From: an uncultured Thermomonas sp.
GTDB taxonomy: Bacteria > Pseudomonadota > Gammaproteobacteria > Xanthomonadales > Xanthomonadaceae
Assembly (NCBI GenBank): GCA_946480065.1
Contig: CAMLJA010000065.1
Coordinates: forward strand, 1-8,926
Reading direction: 5' to 3'
DNA length: 8,926 bases
Shown: one piece after another, positions 993-8,926 of the stretch
Layout: every line of letters starts with the position of its first letter
How positions within the stretch are numbered: position 1 is the stretch's first letter
Position numbers and translations under genes: made by a program
Notes under the pieces: generated by a model
Told to the model about the DNA's origin: nothing
Seen by the model: the letters and a program-made list of their open reading frames with translations, nothing else
Database searches by the model: none

Positions 993-1337
993 TCAGGCGG
1001 CGCGGCCGGCGTCGGTGGTGAAGCTCTCGCCGCAGCCGCACTCGCCGGCCACGTTTGGGTTGCGGAACACGAACTGCTCGTTCAGGCCCTGCTTCACGAA
1101 GTCGATCTCGGTGCCGTCCACCTGGGCCAGGCTGGCGGCGTCCACCAGCACCTTCACGCCGTCCGCCTCGAACACCGCGTCGCCCGCCCCGGCCTCGCCG
1201 TGGGCCATCTCGATCCGGTAGCCCCAGCCCGAACAGCCGCTGCGGGACACCCCGAAGCGCAGGCCGGTGGCGGTGGGGTCGATCTCCAGGTAGCCGCGGA
1301 CGCGGTCGGCGGCGGCGGGGGTGAGCGAAATGGCCAT
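993..1337 (-). CDS. iscA: A-type iron-sulfur carrier protein, IscA-like
   Basis: This 114-residue protein belongs to the HesB/IscA family of A-type carriers, which hold an Fe-S cluster or iron and pass it to target apoproteins in the cytoplasm. The three ligand cysteines are present: Cys35 in SGCSGWGY and Cys100/Cys102 in the C-terminal ECGCGESF. The stretch DFVKQGLNEQFVFRNPNV is closer to IscA than to ErpA. The gene stands alone rather than in an isc cluster, divergent from asnS across 67 bp and pointing toward rpsF. No convincing Shine-Dalgarno precedes the ATG. A short tail (TTDAGRAA) extends past the usual end. Which specific targets it serves cannot be read from sequence. Confidence 0.9.
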   Translation of the reverse strand: MAISLTPAAADRVRGYLEIDPTATGLRFGVSRSGCSGWGYRIEMAHGEAGAGDAVFEADGVKVLVDAASLAQVDGTEIDFVKQGLNEQFVFRNPNVAGECGCGESFTTDAGRAA

Positions 1338-1343
1338 GGGCGG

Positions 1344-1349
1344 ATTCTA
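1344..1349 (-). promoter_or_regulatory. Possible -10 box of iscA, placed for a leaderless mRNA
   Basis: TAGAAT on the minus strand (five of six to TATAAT) ends six bases before the iscA ATG. If used, transcription would start at or within a base or two of the start codon. No clear -35 hexamer is visible 16-18 bases upstream, and no Shine-Dalgarno lies at normal distance, so the evidence is only suggestive. Confidence 0.3.
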
Positions 1350-1389
1350 CCTTGGGTAAACTGCACGGCCTATCTCGATGCCGGAACGC

Positions 1390-1393
1390 AGGA
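1390..1393 (+). promoter_or_regulatory. Ribosome binding site deciding the asnS start
   Basis: AGGA lies 11 bases before the ATG at 1405, a slightly long but usable spacing. The alternative in-frame ATG at 1378 has no purine-rich sequence in front of it, so this site favours 1405. Confidence 0.45.
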
Positions 1394-1404
1394 TTTCAAG
1401 CCCT

Positions 1405-2805
<1,401 letters not shown>

Positions 2806-2812
2806 GCCCGCC

Positions 2813-3130
2813 ATGGATGCCGACCTCGTCCTGTTCCTCGCCCTGTTCGCCTTCGCCATCGCGATCGCGGGCGCGACCGCGTTCGTGATCTTCTGGCCGC
2901 TGGCGCTGGTCCACATCCGCGACCGCCACCCGGAGATCACCGCGAAGCTCGGCCAGGGCGCCTTCCTCAAGCCGCAGGCGCTCTGGTGGCTGCTGCGCGG
3001 CGACTACCGCGCCGCCGGCGACCGCAACCTGTCCGGCCTGGCCACGCCGTCGAAGGTCTCGCTGCTGGTGATCCTGGGCGGCGTGGCGATGGGCGGCCTG
3101 CTCTGGATCCTCGGGCAGGCGCTGTCATGA
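2813..3130 (+). CDS. Small two-TM membrane protein of unknown function
   Basis: I do not recognise a named family with certainty. The 105-residue protein has a hydrophobic segment at about residues 5-28 and another at about 82-100, joined by a polar, probably cytoplasmic loop with a KPQALWWLLRGDYRAAGD stretch. The layout (TM, charged middle with aromatic and RDYR-like residues, C-terminal TM) recalls the small inner-membrane protein UspB, but this is only a topological resemblance. The start lies seven bases after the asnS stop with no strong Shine-Dalgarno. Its stop codon overlaps the next start in an ATGA arrangement, so the two small genes are probably translationally coupled. Codon bias agrees with its neighbours, supporting a real gene. 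Confidence 0.75.
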   Translation: MDADLVLFLALFAFAIAIAGATAFVIFWPLALVHIRDRHPEITAKLGQGAFLKPQALWWLLRGDYRAAGDRNLSGLATPSKVSLLVILGGVAMGGLLWILGQALS

Positions 3131-3432
3131 GCGCGGCCCGCGACGGCTGGTGGCTGGCCACCCTGGGGCGCACCCTGGTCTGGGCGCGCCTGCGCGAGCG
3201 CGATGCCGGCACCGCCGAGGTGTTCGACAGCGACGGCAACACCCTGTCCTACGACAGCGTGGACACCGCCCGCGCCGCGCTGATGGACGCCGAGTTCGTG
3301 GAGTTCGACGGCCTGGACGAGCAGGACGCGCTGGCGCGGGGCTTCTCGCTCGGCGAGATCGCGCCGCCGGACGCGCAGGACGATGCCGCGCTGCGCGGGC
3401 GGATGGTGCAGTCGCTGGGGGCGCGCGCATGA
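3127..3432 (+). CDS. Small acidic soluble protein of unknown function
   Basis: Unrecognised. The 101-residue protein starts at an ATG that overlaps the previous stop (ATGA), and its own stop overlaps the next start in the same way. An open frame extends upstream to 2986, but that part is antiphase to the membrane-protein gene and is rejected. The N-terminal third is tryptophan/arginine-rich (GWWLATLGRTLVWARLRER). The middle reads VFDSDGNTLSYDSVDTARAALMDAEFVEFDGLDEQDA, a regular pattern of acidic turns and short strands or helices. There is no signal peptide, no membrane segment and no metal-binding motif. The tight coupling to a membrane-protein gene upstream and a dehydrogenase downstream suggests co-expression, but no function can be assigned. 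Confidence 0.75.
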   Translation: MSAARDGWWLATLGRTLVWARLRERDAGTAEVFDSDGNTLSYDSVDTARAALMDAEFVEFDGLDEQDALARGFSLGEIAPPDAQDDAALRGRMVQSLGARA

Positions 3433-4217
3433 TCGACCTCGGGCTGGCCGGCAGGCACGCGCTGGTCTGCGGCGCCTCGGAAGGCATCGGCCGCGCCACC
3501 GCCGTCGCGATGGCCGATCTCGGCGCCACCGTCACCGTGCTGGCCCGGCGCCAGGACGCGCTGCGCGAGGTCGTCGCCAGCCTGCCGCACGCGCACGGGC
3601 AGGCCCACGGCCTGCTGGCCGTCGACCTGGCAGACGCAGACGTCCTCCGGGCCGCCGCCGACGCACTGGCGGCCCGCACGCCGGTGCACATCCTGGTCAA
3701 CAACACCGGCGGCCCGCCCGGCGGGCCCGCGCACGCGGCGCCGGTCGAGGCCTACCTCGACGCCTTCCGCAAGCACCTGGTCGCCAACCAGACGCTGGTG
3801 CAGGCGCTGCTGCCCGGCATGCGCGCGGCGGGCTGGGGCCGCATCGTCAACGTCATCTCGACCTCGGTGTACGAGCCCATCCCCAACCTCGGCGTGTCCA
3901 ACACCATCCGCGGCGCGGTGGCGAGCTGGGCGAAGACCCTCTCGCGCGAGCTGGGCGGCGATGGCATCACCGTGAACAACGTGCTGCCCGGCTATACCCG
4001 CACGCGCCGGCTGGAGCAGATCCTGGCCGACCGCAGCGCCGCCACCGGCAAGTCCGAGGACGAGGTGGCGCAGGCGATGCTGGCGACGGTCCCCGCCGGG
4101 CGTTTCGCCGACGCGGAGGAACCCGCGAACCTGATCGCCTTCCTGTGCAGCCCCGCCGCCGCCTACGTCAACGGCCAGTCGATCGCGGTGGACGGCGGCC
4201 GCATGCAGTCGATCTGA
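3429..4217 (+). CDS. Short-chain dehydrogenase/reductase family protein with altered active site
   Basis: This 262-residue Rossmann-fold SDR has the glycine-rich cofactor motif GASEGIGRA (15-23), an Arg40-Arg41 pair after the second beta strand that suggests NADP(H), NNTGG (91-95) in place of NNAGG, and the C-terminal PGYTRT and YVNGQSIAVDGG segments. Ser144 aligns with the catalytic serine. Thirteen residues later, where Tyr of YxxxK should be, is Ser157, and the Lys position is Arg161 (SNTIR). The tetrad Asn position also appears changed (His116). A conventional Tyr/Lys proton relay is therefore missing. Divergent SDR branches with this change exist, and the substrate is unknown. Annotation as 3-oxoacyl-ACP reductase would be unsafe. 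Its start overlaps the preceding stop (ATGA), and nei begins four bases after its end. Confidence 0.88.
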   Translation: MIDLGLAGRHALVCGASEGIGRATAVAMADLGATVTVLARRQDALREVVASLPHAHGQAHGLLAVDLADADVLRAAADALAARTPVHILVNNTGGPPGGPAHAAPVEAYLDAFRKHLVANQTLVQALLPGMRAAGWGRIVNVISTSVYEPIPNLGVSNTIRGAVASWAKTLSRELGGDGITVNNVLPGYTRTRRLEQILADRSAATGKSEDEVAQAMLATVPAGRFADAEEPANLIAFLCSPAAAYVNGQSIAVDGGRMQSI

Positions 4218-4221
4218 GCCG

Positions 4222-5049
4222 ATGCCCGAGGGTCCCGAGATCCGCCGCGCCGCGGACCGCCTGGCCGCGGCCGTGGCCGGGCAACCGCTGCTGCGCGCGG
4301 AGTTCGCGTTCCCCGCGCTGAAGCGCTTCGAACGCACGCTGCCGGGCAGCCGCATCCTGTCGGTCACGCCCCGCGGCAAGGCGCTACTGACCGCGTTCGA
4401 CAACGGCTGGACGCTGTATACCCACAACCAGCTCTATGGCGTCTGGCAGGTCGCCGGGCCGGGCGATCGCCCCGCCACCTCGCGCAGCCTGCGGGTCGCG
4501 CTGGAAACCCGGCGCGCGTCGATCCTGCTCTACTCCGCCTCGGACATCGAGCTCTGGCGCAGCGACGAGATCGAGGCCCATCCGTTCCTTCGCGGCCTCG
4601 GCCCCGACGTGCTGGACATGACACTGGACGCCGACACCGTGGCCGCGCGGCTGCAGTCGCCGGCGTTCCGCGGCCGTGCGCTGGGCGCGCTGCTGCTCGA
4701 CCAGGGCTTCCTGGCCGGGATGGGCAACTACCTGCGCGCGGAAGTGCTGTTCGAGGCCGGGCTGCACCCCGCCCTGCGCCCGCGCGAGCTGGCGCCCGCG
4801 CGGACCGCGCGACTGGCCGAGGCGCTGCTGGCGATCCCGCGCCTGAGCTACGCCACCCGCGGCATCGAACCCACGCGCGGGATGCGCGCCGACTACCTGG
4901 CGCGCGAGGGCGAGGCGTTCCGCTTCCGCGTGTTCCAGCGCGACGGCCGGCCCTGCGAACGCTGCGCAACGGCGATCGCGCGCATCGCCAGCCAGTCGCG
5001 GCCGCTGTTCCTGTGCCCGCATTGCCAGCCTGCGCGCCCGCCGCAGTAA
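4222..5049 (+). CDS. nei: Endonuclease VIII (DNA glycosylase/AP lyase)
   Basis: A bifunctional glycosylase/AP lyase of the Fpg/Nei family that removes oxidised pyrimidines from DNA and cuts the abasic site. It begins MPEGPEIRRAADRL. Pro2 is the Schiff-base nucleophile and Glu3 the catalytic acid, with Glu6 and Lys53 (TPRGKALL) in the expected places. HNQLYGVW and LLYSASDIE are Nei-specific and separate it from Fpg. The helix-two-turn-helix region contains LLLDQGFLAGMGNYLR. The C-terminal zinc finger is intact (Cys245, Cys248, Cys265, Cys268, spacing C-X2-C-X16-C-X2-C). At 275 residues it is about a dozen longer than E. coli Nei. It sits four bases after the SDR and nine before the aldehyde dehydrogenase, an unusual place for a repair gene. 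Confidence 0.95.
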   Translation: MPEGPEIRRAADRLAAAVAGQPLLRAEFAFPALKRFERTLPGSRILSVTPRGKALLTAFDNGWTLYTHNQLYGVWQVAGPGDRPATSRSLRVALETRRASILLYSASDIELWRSDEIEAHPFLRGLGPDVLDMTLDADTVAARLQSPAFRGRALGALLLDQGFLAGMGNYLRAEVLFEAGLHPALRPRELAPARTARLAEALLAIPRLSYATRGIEPTRGMRADYLAREGEAFRFRVFQRDGRPCERCATAIARIASQSRPLFLCPHCQPARPPQ

Positions 5050-5058
5050 ACTCGCGGG

Positions 5059-6483
5059 ATGCACCGGTTCGGACACGTCATCGGCGCCCTCAGCGGCGAT
5101 TCGACCAGCACCCGCTGGCAGCCGGTGTTCGACCCCGCCCATGCGCACCCGTACGCGGAGGTGGCGGCCGGGGACGCCGGCACCGTCGATGCCGCGGTGG
5201 CCGCGGCCGCCGCGGCGGCACCGGCCTGGGCGGCGCTGCGCCCCAGCGACCGCGCGCGCCACCTGGAGCGGCTGGCCGACGCGCTGGAGGCCCGCCTCGA
5301 CGCCTTCGCCCGTGCCGAAGCCATCGACGCCGGCAAGCCGCTGGCACTCGCGCGCGACATCGAGATCCCGCGTGCCGTCTCCAACCTGCGCTTCTTCGCG
5401 CACGCGGCCACCCAGTTCGCCAGCGAGTCGCACCACGGCGAGGCCGGCCTGAACTACACCCTGCGCCTGCCGCTGGGCGTGGTCGGCTGCATCAGCCCGT
5501 GGAACCTGCCGCTGTACCTGTTCACCTGGAAGATCGCGCCGGCGCTGGCCGCGGGCAACGCGGTGGTCGCCAAGCCATCGGAGATCACGCCGGCCACCGC
5601 GACGCTGCTGGGCGAGCTGGCGCTGGAGGCCGGCCTGCCGCCCGGCGTGCTCAACATCGTCCACGGCCTCGGCCCGGACGTGGGCGAGCCGCTGGTACTT
5701 CATCCGCAGGTCAAGGCGGTCTCGTTCACCGGCAGCACCGCCGTGGGCCGTCGCATCGCCGGCATCGCCGGGCCGCTGCTGAAGAAGGTCTCGCTGGAGC
5801 TGGGCGGCAAGAACGCCACCGTGGTGTTCGCCGACAGCGACTGGCGCGCCCACCTCGACACCGTGGTGCGCAGCGCGTTCCAGAACAGCGGCCAGATCTG
5901 CCTGTGCGGCTCGCGGATACTGGTCGAACGGGCGATCTACGCCGACTTCCGCGACGCCCTGGTCGAACGCGCCCGCGCGCTGCGCCTGGGCAGCCCGCTG
6001 GACGACGGCGTGCAACTCGGTCCGATGGTCTCGCAGGCCCACTTCGACAAGGTTATGGCCGCCCTCGAACGCGCGCGCAGCGAAGGCGGCCGCGTGCTGT
6101 GCGGCGGCGCGGCGGTGGAGCGCGCCGGGTGGTTCATCGCGCCGACCGTCATCGAAGGCCTGGGCCCGGACTGCGCCACCAACCGCGAAGAGATCTTCGG
6201 CCCGGTGGCCACCCTGCAGGCCTTCGAATCCGACGATGACGCGCTGGCGCTGGCCAACGCCTCCGAGTACGGCCTGTCCGCCAGCGTGTGGACCCGCGAC
6301 CTGGCCCGCGCGCACCGCTTCGGCGCGCAGCTGCGGGTGGGCATCGTGTGGATCAACAGCTGGATGATGCGCGACCTGCGCACGCCCTTCGGCGGCACCG
6401 GCGCCTCCGGCATCGGCCGCGAGGGCGGGCTGGAGGCGATGCGTTTCTTCACCGAAGCCCGCAACGTGGGGCTCGCCCTGTAA
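5059..6483 (+). CDS. nbaE: 2-aminomuconic 6-semialdehyde dehydrogenase (ALDH family)
   Basis: A 474-residue aldehyde dehydrogenase that would oxidise 2-aminomuconate semialdehyde to 2-aminomuconate with NAD+. Seen directly: PWNLPLYLFTWKIAPALAAGN (Asn149 the oxyanion-hole residue), Lys172 in AKPSE, FTGST (223-227), Glu247 in LELGGK and the nucleophile Cys281 in NSGQIC. The C-terminal WINSWMMRDLRTPFGG segment and the ARDIEIPRA stretch near residues 98-106 are typical of the AMSDH/ALDH8A1 group rather than general aldehyde or betaine-aldehyde dehydrogenases. Neighbouring deaminase, dioxygenase and decarboxylase genes support the specific substrate. The N-terminus is somewhat short for the family but the fold appears complete. 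The start is nine bases after nei with no strong Shine-Dalgarno, suggesting coupled translation. Confidence 0.9.
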   Translation: MHRFGHVIGALSGDSTSTRWQPVFDPAHAHPYAEVAAGDAGTVDAAVAAAAAAAPAWAALRPSDRARHLERLADALEARLDAFARAEAIDAGKPLALARDIEIPRAVSNLRFFAHAATQFASESHHGEAGLNYTLRLPLGVVGCISPWNLPLYLFTWKIAPALAAGNAVVAKPSEITPATATLLGELALEAGLPPGVLNIVHGLGPDVGEPLVLHPQVKAVSFTGSTAVGRRIAGIAGPLLKKVSLELGGKNATVVFADSDWRAHLDTVVRSAFQNSGQICLCGSRILVERAIYADFRDALVERARALRLGSPLDDGVQLGPMVSQAHFDKVMAALERARSEGGRVLCGGAAVERAGWFIAPTVIEGLGPDCATNREEIFGPVATLQAFESDDDALALANASEYGLSASVWTRDLARAHRFGAQLRVGIVWINSWMMRDLRTPFGGTGASGIGREGGLEAMRFFTEARNVGLAL

Positions 6484-6488
6484 CCCAT

Positions 6489-6511
6489 GGATGGACCGAC
6501 GGATGGACCGA
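6489..6511 (+). repeat. Short tandem duplication at the can start
   Basis: GGATGGACCGA occurs twice with a 12-base period (6489-6499 and 6501-6511), ending on the first base of the chosen can start codon. The duplication adds in-frame ATGs and makes the true start ambiguous. It looks like a small slippage event. Confidence 0.7.
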
Positions 6512-7173
6512 TGAGCCGACTCGACGACCTGCTGGACAACAACCGCGCCTGGGCCGACCGCGTCTCGCGCGAGGACCCCGGCTTCTTCCAGCGCCTGTCG
6601 CGGCAGCAGGCACCGAAATTCCTCTGGATCGGCTGCTCGGACTCGCGGGTGCCGGCGAACCAGGTGGTGGACCTGGCGCCGGGCGAAGTGTTCGTCCACC
6701 GCAACATCGCCAACGTGGTGGTGCACACCGACCTCAACTGCCTGTCGGTGATCCAGTTCGCGGTGGACGTGCTGAAGGTCGAGCACGTGCTGGTGGTGGG
6801 CCACTACGGTTGCGGCGGCGTGCACGCGGCGCTGCACGGCAGCCGCCTGGGCCTGGCCGACAACTGGGTGCGCCACGTCGGCGACGTCGCCGGCAAGCAC
6901 CAGGACGTGCTGGACGAGATGGGCGATGCGGAACTGCAGCACGACCGCCTGTGCGAACTGAACGTACTGGAGCAGGTGGCGAACGTCTGCCAGACCAGCA
7001 TCGTGGCCGACGCCTGGGGGCGCGGCCAGAAGCTGGCGGTGCACGGCTGGGTGTACACCCTGCGCGACGGCCGCGTGCACGACCTGGAGCTCAATGTGGC
7101 GGGCGCGGACGAGCTGTCGCCGCAGTACGCGGCGGCGCTGGCGCGGATCCGCGCCGACCGGGAGGACCGCTGA
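6511..7173 (+). CDS. can: Beta-class carbonic anhydrase
   Basis: A zinc enzyme interconverting CO2 and bicarbonate in the cytoplasm. From the ATG at 6511 it is 220 residues, equal to E. coli Can, and the zinc ligands fall at the same numbers: Cys42 and Asp44-Arg46 in GCSDSRVP, His98 and Cys101 in GHYGCGG. The DPGFF, LWIGC, HRNIAN, TDLNCLSVIQ, LCELNV and HGWVY blocks are all kept, so it should be active. An in-frame ATG at 6487 would add eight residues (DGPT/DGPM repeat) unlike the family. The stop overlaps the next start (TGATG). It sits between the semialdehyde dehydrogenase and the deaminase of the kynurenine route, so a role in handling CO2 released there is a reasonable inference. Confidence 0.95.
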   Translation: MSRLDDLLDNNRAWADRVSREDPGFFQRLSRQQAPKFLWIGCSDSRVPANQVVDLAPGEVFVHRNIANVVVHTDLNCLSVIQFAVDVLKVEHVLVVGHYGCGGVHAALHGSRLGLADNWVRHVGDVAGKHQDVLDEMGDAELQHDRLCELNVLEQVANVCQTSIVADAWGRGQKLAVHGWVYTLRDGRVHDLELNVAGADELSPQYAAALARIRADREDR

Positions 7174-7607
7174 TGGCCGCCGCCGGCATCATCGTCCCGG
7201 GCGCGCCCTCGCCGGTCGGCCATTACCCGCATGCGCGCCGCGTGGGCGACCTACTCTACGTCTCCGGCGCCGGCCCCCGCGACGCCGCCACCAACGCGGT
7301 GCCGGGCAACGTGCTGGACGCCGATGGCCGCGTGGTCGACCACGACATCGCCGCGCAGTGGCGCAGCGTGACCGGCAACGTGGAGCACGTGCTGGCCCAC
7401 TGCGGGCTGGGCTGGGCGGACGTGGTGGACGTGACCGTGTTCCTGACCGACTACGACCGCGACTTCGCCGCCTACAACGCGCTGTGGGCGGAAAAATTCC
7501 CCACGGTCGCCGACGCGCCGTGCCGGACCACGATGGAGGTCAGCCGGCTGCCCGGCCCGATCCACATCGAGCTCAAGGTCATCGCCCAGTTCCCGCCAGG
7601 AGCCTGA
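7173..7607 (+). CDS. nbaF: 2-aminomuconate deaminase, RidA family
   Basis: This 144-residue protein has the RidA/YjgF trimeric fold. The role proposed is hydrolysis of 2-aminomuconate to 4-oxalocrotonate and ammonia. RidA features include [13 protein letters not shown] near the N-terminus, [22 protein letters not shown] (84-105), and the active-site Arg118 (CRTTMEV) with Glu133 (IHIELKVIA). The internal insertion with [15 protein letters not shown] (45-59) and the ending resemble the deaminase subgroup rather than housekeeping RidA. The assignment rests mainly on its position between the AMSDH/can pair and the dioxygenase. A general enamine deaminase is the alternative. A strong GGAGG at 7161-7165 precedes the start, which overlaps the can stop. 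The next gene begins after one spacer base. Confidence 0.87.
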
Positions 7608-7608
7608 C

Positions 7609-8175
7609 ATGCCGCTGCCCGGACCGCTGAACCTGCAGGCCTGGATCGACGAGCACCGACACTTGCTGCAGCCGCCGGTCGGCAACAAGTGCATCGTCGA
7701 CGACGACTACATCGTGATGGTGGTGGGCGGCCCCAACGCGCGCACCGATTACCACTTCGAGGACGGCCCGGAGTGGTTCTACCAACTCGAGGGCGAGATG
7801 GTCCTGCGGGTGCAGGAGGACTACGACGGCGAGCGCGGCGCGGTGCGCGACATTCCCATCCGCGCCGGCGAGATGTTCTACCTGCCGCCCAGGGTGCCGC
7901 ACTCGCCGCAGCGCATGCCGGGCAGCGTGGGCCTGGTGATCGAGCGCCGCCGGCTGGCGCACGAGGACGACGCCCTGATGTGGTTCTGCGTGGCCTGCAA
8001 CCGCAAGCTCTACGCGGAATCCTTCCACCTGGTCGACATCGAACAGGACTTCTTCCGGGTGTTCGAGCGCTTCTACCGCGACGACGCCCTGCGCACCTGC
8101 CCCGACTGCGGCACGCTCAACCCGCGCCCCAGCCGCTACGAGATGGGCGCGGACTCGCAGGCCGACATCACGTGA
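7609..8175 (+). CDS. nbaC: 3-hydroxyanthranilate 3,4-dioxygenase
   Basis: A cupin dioxygenase that opens the ring of 3-hydroxyanthranilate with O2 to give 2-amino-3-carboxymuconate semialdehyde (ACMS), which otherwise cyclises to quinolinate. The 188-residue protein keeps the catalytic Fe(II) ligands His49, Glu55 ([16 protein letters not shown]) and His98 ([11 protein letters not shown]), and the conserved [11 protein letters not shown] around residues 39-49. It also has the second, rubredoxin-like iron site found in bacterial enzymes: Cys127/Cys130 (CVAC) and Cys164/Cys167 (CPDC). A loop of a few residues around [10 protein letters not shown] is longer than in the Cupriavidus enzyme, and there is a short C-terminal tail. 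AGGAG at 7598-7602 gives a good ribosome site. Its product is the substrate of the next gene. Confidence 0.96.
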
Positions 8176-8183
8176 GCGCGGGC

Positions 8184-8926
8184 ATGCTCAAGATCGACAC
8201 CCACGCCCACTACCTGCCGCGGGACTGGCCGGACCTTGCCGGCAAGTACGGTGACAACCGCTTCCCGGTGATCCACCACGGCGACGACGGCCGCCACCGG
8301 ATCTACAAGGACGGCAAGTTCTTCCGCGAGATCTGGCCCAAGACCTGGGACCCCCAGATCCGCATCGACGACTACGCCGGCTTCGGCGTGCAGGTGCAGG
8401 TGCTGTCCACGGTGCCGGTGATGTTCAGCTACTGGGCCCGCGCCAGCCACGCGCTGGAACTGCACCGCGCGCTGAACGACCACCTGGCCGCCACCTGCCG
8501 CGACCAGCCGCGCCACTACGCCGGGATCGGCACGGTGCCGCTGCAGTCGCCCGCGCTGGCGGTGCGCGAGCTGGAGCGCTGCATGGACGAGTTGGGCCTG
8601 CAGGGCGTGCAGATCGGCAGCCACGTCGAGGACATGAACCTGGACGCGCCGGAGCTGTTCGAGTTCTTCCAGGCCGCCAGCGACCTGGGGGCGGCGATCC
8701 TGGTGCACCCGTGGGACATGATGGGCGCCGATTCGATGCCCAAGTATTGGCTGCCATGGCTGGTGGGCATGCCCGCCGAGCAGTCGCGCGCCGCCTGCTG
8801 CCTGGTGTTCGGCGGCGTACTGGAGCGGCTGCCGAAGCTGCGCGTCGCGCTGGCCCACGGCGGCGGCAGCTTCCCCTACACCATCGGCCGCATCGAGCAC
8901 GGCTTCAACATGCGCCCGGACCTGGT
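8184..8926 (+). CDS. nbaD: ACMS decarboxylase (amidohydrolase family), N-terminal part
   Basis: 2-amino-3-carboxymuconate-6-semialdehyde decarboxylase, a zinc enzyme that removes CO2 from ACMS to give 2-aminomuconic semialdehyde and so diverts flux away from quinolinate. About 247 of some 335 residues are visible. Seen: the metal-binding HxH (His7, His9 in IDTHAHYLP), [26 protein letters not shown], the third metal His175 in LVHPWDMMG, and HGGGSF with His225. The fourth ligand, an Asp expected near residue 290, lies beyond the window. The ATG at 8184 gives the usual N-terminus. A GTG at 8172 overlapping the dioxygenase stop (GTGA) is in frame and would add four residues. The close junction indicates coupled expression with the dioxygenase. 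Confidence 0.94.

Follow-up and report, generated by a model that had tools for sequence, protein, structure and literature searches.

A carbonic anhydrase gene within a kynurenine-degradation gene run of an uncultured Thermomonas species is probably the lineage's housekeeping enzyme

One report (PMC3364446) describes carbonic anhydrase (CA) knockouts of Ralstonia eutropha and Escherichia coli as failing to grow in ambient air and growing at 1–5% CO2, CA being dispensable at high CO2. The housekeeping enzyme of E. coli, Can (YadF), belongs to the same family (PRK10437) as the product of the gene considered here, a Can-type beta-CA gene (can) found in an 8,926-nt stretch of DNA from an uncultured Thermomonas species, referred to below as the window. 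The two proteins align over their full length and have the active-site residues in common, and can of the window type, like its E. coli counterpart probably a housekeeping gene, is usually the sole beta-CA gene of its genome. Unlike E. coli can, however, it sits inside a string made up of asnS and kynurenine-pathway genes. A second report (PMC6627978) places the CA gene cynT in the E. coli cyn cluster and gives bicarbonate as a substrate of cyanase. That cluster resembles the window in that a CA gene lies within a catabolic cluster releasing CO2 and ammonia. The use of bicarbonate by cyanase gives CynT a direct role, whereas we know of no enzyme encoded in the window that uses bicarbonate; window-type can also differs from cynT in usually being the sole beta-CA gene. 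The pathway genes themselves are best compared with the nba-type 2-nitrobenzoate/3-hydroxyanthranilate meta-cleavage route of Pseudomonas fluorescens KU-7. As in that route, 3-hydroxyanthranilate 3,4-dioxygenase (HAO), 2-amino-3-carboxymuconate 6-semialdehyde decarboxylase (ACMSD), 2-aminomuconate 6-semialdehyde dehydrogenase (AMSDH) and 2-aminomuconate deaminase all occur together in the window; the likeness may end at a 4-oxalocrotonate decarboxylase, for which the relatives considered below give no match where ACMSD is present. No report of a CA in a kynurenine cluster appeared among the open-licence papers listed in our searches.

The window carries the following features.

1378..2805, plus strand: AsnS, asparagine--tRNA ligase, first gene of the same-strand run (NF003037 and TIGR00457 over cut-off)
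3429..4217, plus strand: SDR-family oxidoreductase (PF13561), a frequent AMSDH neighbour in relatives
4222..5049, plus strand: nei-like gene, endonuclease VIII / Fpg family (NF007763 over cut-off)
5059..6483, plus strand: AMSDH-like gene (PF00171; best solved chains 4u3w, 7bzv, 4npi)
6484..6510, plus strand: spacer from the AMSDH stop to the likely can start, with a short direct repeat (by eye) and an alternative in-frame ATG at 6487
6511..7173, plus strand: can, Can-type beta-carbonic anhydrase, 220 aa from the likely start, which was set by comparison
7173..7607, plus strand: RidA-family protein, probable 2-aminomuconate deaminase (PF01042; best solved chain 6izh)
7609..8175, plus strand: HAO (NF009763 and TIGR03037 over cut-off)
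8172..8926, plus strand: ACMSD (PF04909), starting at GTG 8172 or ATG 8184 and truncated by the window end

The open reading frame at 6487–7173 on the plus strand encodes a complete Can-type beta-CA (228 aa if read from 6487). As the earlier note had said, it lies between the AMSDH and deaminase genes and overlaps the latter, the can stop and the RidA ATG (7173) having one base in common (TGATG). The product scores 287.3 bits against the NCBIfam equivalog PRK10437, carbonate dehydratase (cut-off 251), and matches Pfam PF00484. The active site of beta-CAs consists of Cys/Asp/His/Cys zinc ligands plus an Asp-Arg dyad. Read from ATG 6511, the product aligns to E. coli Can (1i6o) with residue 2 on residue 2 and through to 214/213, and C42, D44, R46, H98 and C101 are all kept. 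Because of this alignment, and because the match starts at query residue 7–12 in 58 of 80 relatives, a start at 6511 is likelier than one at 6487. The direct repeat ahead of the likely start (6487–6510) contributes the extra in-frame ATG. We regard the product as a putative carbonate dehydratase, for which CO2 hydration is predicted.

The assignments of the flanking genes draw largely on solved structures. For the AMSDH-like product the best solved chains are 2-aminomuconate 6-semialdehyde dehydrogenases, and no cut-off is passed among the 25 NCBIfam matches listed. The best solved chain for the RidA-family product is a 2-aminomuconate deaminase (E 1.5e-20), and this product falls below every NCBIfam cut-off. 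For ACMSD, the best solved chains are themselves ACMSD (E 2.5e-90) and an NCBIfam match is absent.

From asnS (1378) to ACMSD every annotated gene is on the plus strand, neighbours being no more than 27 nt apart. The earlier note had placed can within a decarboxylating catabolic operon. These spacings suggest that can is probably co-transcribed with the neighbouring pathway genes, but since the tightly spaced same-strand run opens at asnS, it is not a purely catabolic operon. A scan of positions 1300–8300 found zero promoters and zero terminators; as 0.3 and 1.8, respectively, are expected by chance, this result says little about transcription.

To place the arrangement among relatives, loci were collected with can as the anchor, and the best 80 of 444 confirmed can loci were retained. 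By record title, most come from Lysobacter, Stenotrophomonas, Pseudoxanthomonas, Xanthomonas and close kin. In 79 of the 80, HAO follows 3' of can in the same orientation; the contig of one locus (L051) stops inside can, and in another (L080) HAO is 6.6 kb away. On the other side, 69 of the 80 loci carry asnS upstream of can, in the same orientation. AMSDH is present at the can locus in 53/80, RidA in 52/80 and ACMSD in 48/80, figures in which absences, like the distances, may be assembly gaps, many of the genomes being drafts or MAGs. Chance adjacency of can was ruled out on the counts for HAO and AMSDH. The Xanthomonas and Stenotrophomonas loci have can and HAO adjoining, without AMSDH, RidA or ACMSD, and a kynureninase gene and a KMO-like gene follow beyond HAO. 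Seven loci (L028, L033, L039, L040, L046, L069 and L076) hold a can-kynurenine block without asnS within 7–9 kb upstream; in these, therefore, can stayed with the kynurenine block and not with asnS.

The pairing described in the earlier note has counterparts in relatives to the extent that the order AMSDH-can-RidA recurs, tightly packed, across several genera. Between can and RidA the distance falls within -10 to +20 nt at 55 of 60 loci, 41 of them overlapping, under a procedure that chose the RidA start nearest the can stop and so favours tight values. Between AMSDH and can, 51 of 62 loci have a gap of no more than 130 nt, counted up to the point where the tblastn match begins. Such coupling over several genera may have been selected, or may be mere dense packing like that of the other genes of the run.

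A second survey took HAO as its anchor. Of 151 genomes sampled from the order, 115 gave an HAO match, of which 111 strong matches were kept and 4 weak ones dropped; the match in one genome (G428) is a fragment. A listed CA lies within 15 kb of HAO in at least 31 of the 111 genomes, and within 3 kb on the same strand in at least 29, both counts being lower bounds with distances taken from 150 listed places in 120 of 122 genomes. Among 24 further genomes with strong HAO matches (9 + 15, from class and phylum samples outside the order sample), a listed CA never comes within 15 kb of HAO; the smallest distance on a shared contig is about 35 kb (G758), and G300 and G776 show no CA. Taken alone, the HAO-anchored counts had made the link look confined to the 29 of 111 genomes within 3 kb.

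Inspection of individual regions gave a different picture. The string asnS-SDR-AMSDH-can-RidA occurs with HAO far away in L149, L152, L154, L157, L158, L161 and L185–L189, and AMSDH and RidA are therefore the more widely shared flanks of can. An old link between can and HAO was rejected, as AMSDH-can-RidA is seen with HAO elsewhere in other genomes. Of 16 regions initially picked by hand, mostly with HAO far from the CA, 9 show AMSDH-can-RidA and 7 do not; in three of the 9, asnS is outside the stretch or another gene lies between. A second set of 16 includes 7 that hold can, and AMSDH and RidA flank it in 7/7, two of these 7 (L182 and L190) having been chosen from genomes known for can near HAO.

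The linkage nonetheless breaks both ways. Two loci (L153 and L156, of genomes G400 and G364) keep can and have neither AMSDH nor RidA at the locus, with ACMSD matches of just 33–38%. AMSDH and RidA are also absent at L004, the genome of which retains ACMSD; loss of the former pair was scored at the can locus only and that of ACMSD genome-wide. Conversely, L180 and L181 have asnS-SDR-AMSDH-RidA and lack can; no PF00484 match was recorded for their genomes, G448 and G409, the latter by an explicit zero and the former as one of 9 unlisted genomes counted as having none. In L177 (G336) the same string is joined by HAO and ACMSD, again without can, and the only PF00484 match of that genome (L162) is located on a different contig, where no other query gene surrounds it. 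AMSDH and RidA without can between them were also found in L165, L166, L083 and L088. The occurrence of a CynT-like enzyme would be tied to its pathway in both directions; among these relatives that of can is not.

Trees were used to follow these changes. In a joint AsnS and CAN tree of 77 loci, built by a quick method and with 18 of 74 inner branches open, AMSDH presence at the locus needs at least 7 changes and RidA presence likewise at least 7; can is in all rows by choice, and the tree thus cannot show its loss. We infer that the AMSDH and RidA changes were losses from the presence of both genes in most basal rows. One locus on a contig titled Bacillus subtilis SK7B5 (L058) falls within Stenotrophomonas in this tree and is probably contamination or mislabelled. 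In a tree of CAN alone (51 rows), 47 rows including the window form one clade (98/84), outside which lie the CAN of G336, G332 and G323 and the root row. This clade fits one insertion of can, under a root that rests on one long branch, the distant L150; L164, at 30% identity, was excluded.

The earlier note had also raised whether can is the only CA gene of its genome. We addressed this in 40 genomes, all can-holding and chosen by hand from the 80 loci for spread over genera. In 32 of them can is the sole PF00484 match, which points to a housekeeping role; the remaining 8 have two or three matches, and an alpha-CA is present in 6 of the 40, so that the uniqueness of can holds for most relatives but not all. 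With both beta- and alpha-class enzymes searched, 27/40 have one beta-CA and zero alpha-CA. A second beta-CA as the housekeeping enzyme was accordingly rejected for most relatives. A CynT-like enzyme would have such a separate housekeeping beta-CA beside it, and the relatives without one are these same 32, against 8 with more. In the wider sample of the order, 29/151 genomes have no PF00484 match, and some members seem to do without any beta-CA.

The same 40 genomes were examined for the steps that release CO2. An ACMSD ortholog (at least 81% identity to that of the window) is present in 27, and in the other 13 an ACMSD match is absent or at most 33%. All 13 genomes without an ortholog keep can beside HAO, although in one of them (L022) a 0.65 kb gene lies between the two. 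This result, together with the existence of the gene string without can, speaks against the earlier proposal that handling of the CO2 from ACMSD is the reason for the pairing. The accompanying statement that later steps of the route also decarboxylate finds no support: the 4-oxalocrotonate decarboxylase model (TIGR03218) matches 0 of the 27 ACMSD-positive relatives, and its matches in 6 of the 40 genomes (2 over cut-off) are all in ACMSD-negative ones. Another enzyme could carry out that step.

NAD synthesis was considered in the same set. A NadA match is absent in 30 of the 40 genomes, including all 13 without ACMSD and 17 of the 27 with it. Because these 13 have no NadA match, HAO is probably their only de novo route to quinolinate. 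ACMSD is present in all 10 of the 40 genomes that do carry NadA. The ACMSD branch, which diverts ACMS away from NAD, is absent solely from genomes in which the kynurenine route appears to be the one de novo source of NAD.

Our preferred explanation, which we consider likely, is that can is the housekeeping beta-CA of this lineage, that it was inserted into an older, asnS-linked catabolic string, that it is co-transcribed with that string, and that handling of CO2 from ACMSD is not the cause of the adjacency. During growth in air the enzyme would supply carboxylases with bicarbonate made from CO2. The gene would have entered an existing asnS-SDR-AMSDH-RidA string between AMSDH and RidA, perhaps a single time, in an ancestor shared by part of the Xanthomonadales, and would since have been transcribed with its surroundings: upstream with asnS and downstream, in this species, with the kynurenine genes. 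The adjacency would then reflect insertion and dense packing rather than a need for CO2 handling by ACMSD. Several observations count against this explanation. AMSDH-can-RidA is tight over genera, and an accidental neighbour need not be; seven can-kynurenine blocks have no asnS nearby; and some relatives have further beta-CAs or an alpha-CA, while others in the order show no beta-CA match. A secondary, pathway-linked benefit of can is possible but would not be what keeps the gene there. Should the can-deaminase overlaps mark a real partnership, kynurenine use would raise the sole beta-CA, which would turn local CO2 and ammonia into bicarbonate and ammonium for carbamoyl phosphate and other carboxylations, and lineages lacking the pathway would keep can for housekeeping only. 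We think this unlikely. Were the coupling that remains to have a function, the supply of bicarbonate in these bacteria would be tied to kynurenine and asnS transcription.

A stronger link to catabolism, in which can is a pathway-specific CA akin to CynT that hydrates the CO2 released by ACMSD, acts as a buffer together with the ammonia that the deaminase releases and is co-regulated to this end, would account for the position of can between AMSDH and RidA with its frequent overlaps, for the ACMSD orthologs in 27/40 genomes, and for the persistence of AMSDH-can-RidA in several genomes although HAO and ACMSD are elsewhere. It is harder to reconcile with the retention of can beside HAO in the 13 genomes without an ACMSD ortholog and through at least 7 changes in AMSDH and RidA presence, or with strings that do without can (L177, L180, L181, L165, L166, L083 and L088). 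Nor would a dedicated second isozyme be the sole beta-CA in 32/40 relatives, and TIGR03218 is unmatched in every ACMSD-positive genome; we therefore judge this reading improbable. The pairing could instead reflect NAD synthesis, with can and HAO both needed in aerobic growth, HAO providing quinolinate where NadA is missing and can providing bicarbonate for carboxylases. The adjoining can and HAO of Xanthomonas and Stenotrophomonas loci that lack the catabolic genes, the kynureninase and KMO-like genes after HAO, and the missing NadA matches would all agree with such a link. However, other members of the order have HAO far from can and can between AMSDH and RidA, and a listed CA is near HAO in a minority of the order sample by lower-bound count (at least 31/111) and in 0/24 further genomes, which makes this reading improbable as well. 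Against these, the housekeeping explanation is the one we retain. The case illustrates that a gene's close and repeatedly observed place in an operon may hint at a pathway role for which a broader survey leaves less support.

Other genes recur around these loci. The SDR gene is often next to AMSDH, also in loci that lack can (L165, L177, L180 and L181). In genomes that give no 4-oxalocrotonate decarboxylase match, its product may catalyse a step of the 2-aminomuconate route that has gone unrecognised. In eight loci, among them L001 (1227–2504), L002 (8724–10007), L013 (8696–9976), L051 (1890–3188) and L069 (8624–10000), AMSDH and can are separated by a gene of about 430 aa that matches ChaN/Tiki weakly (PF04187, below cut-off). 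A related gene is found between can and RidA in L080 (10764–12107), L151, L159 and L182, and other loci have copies nearby.
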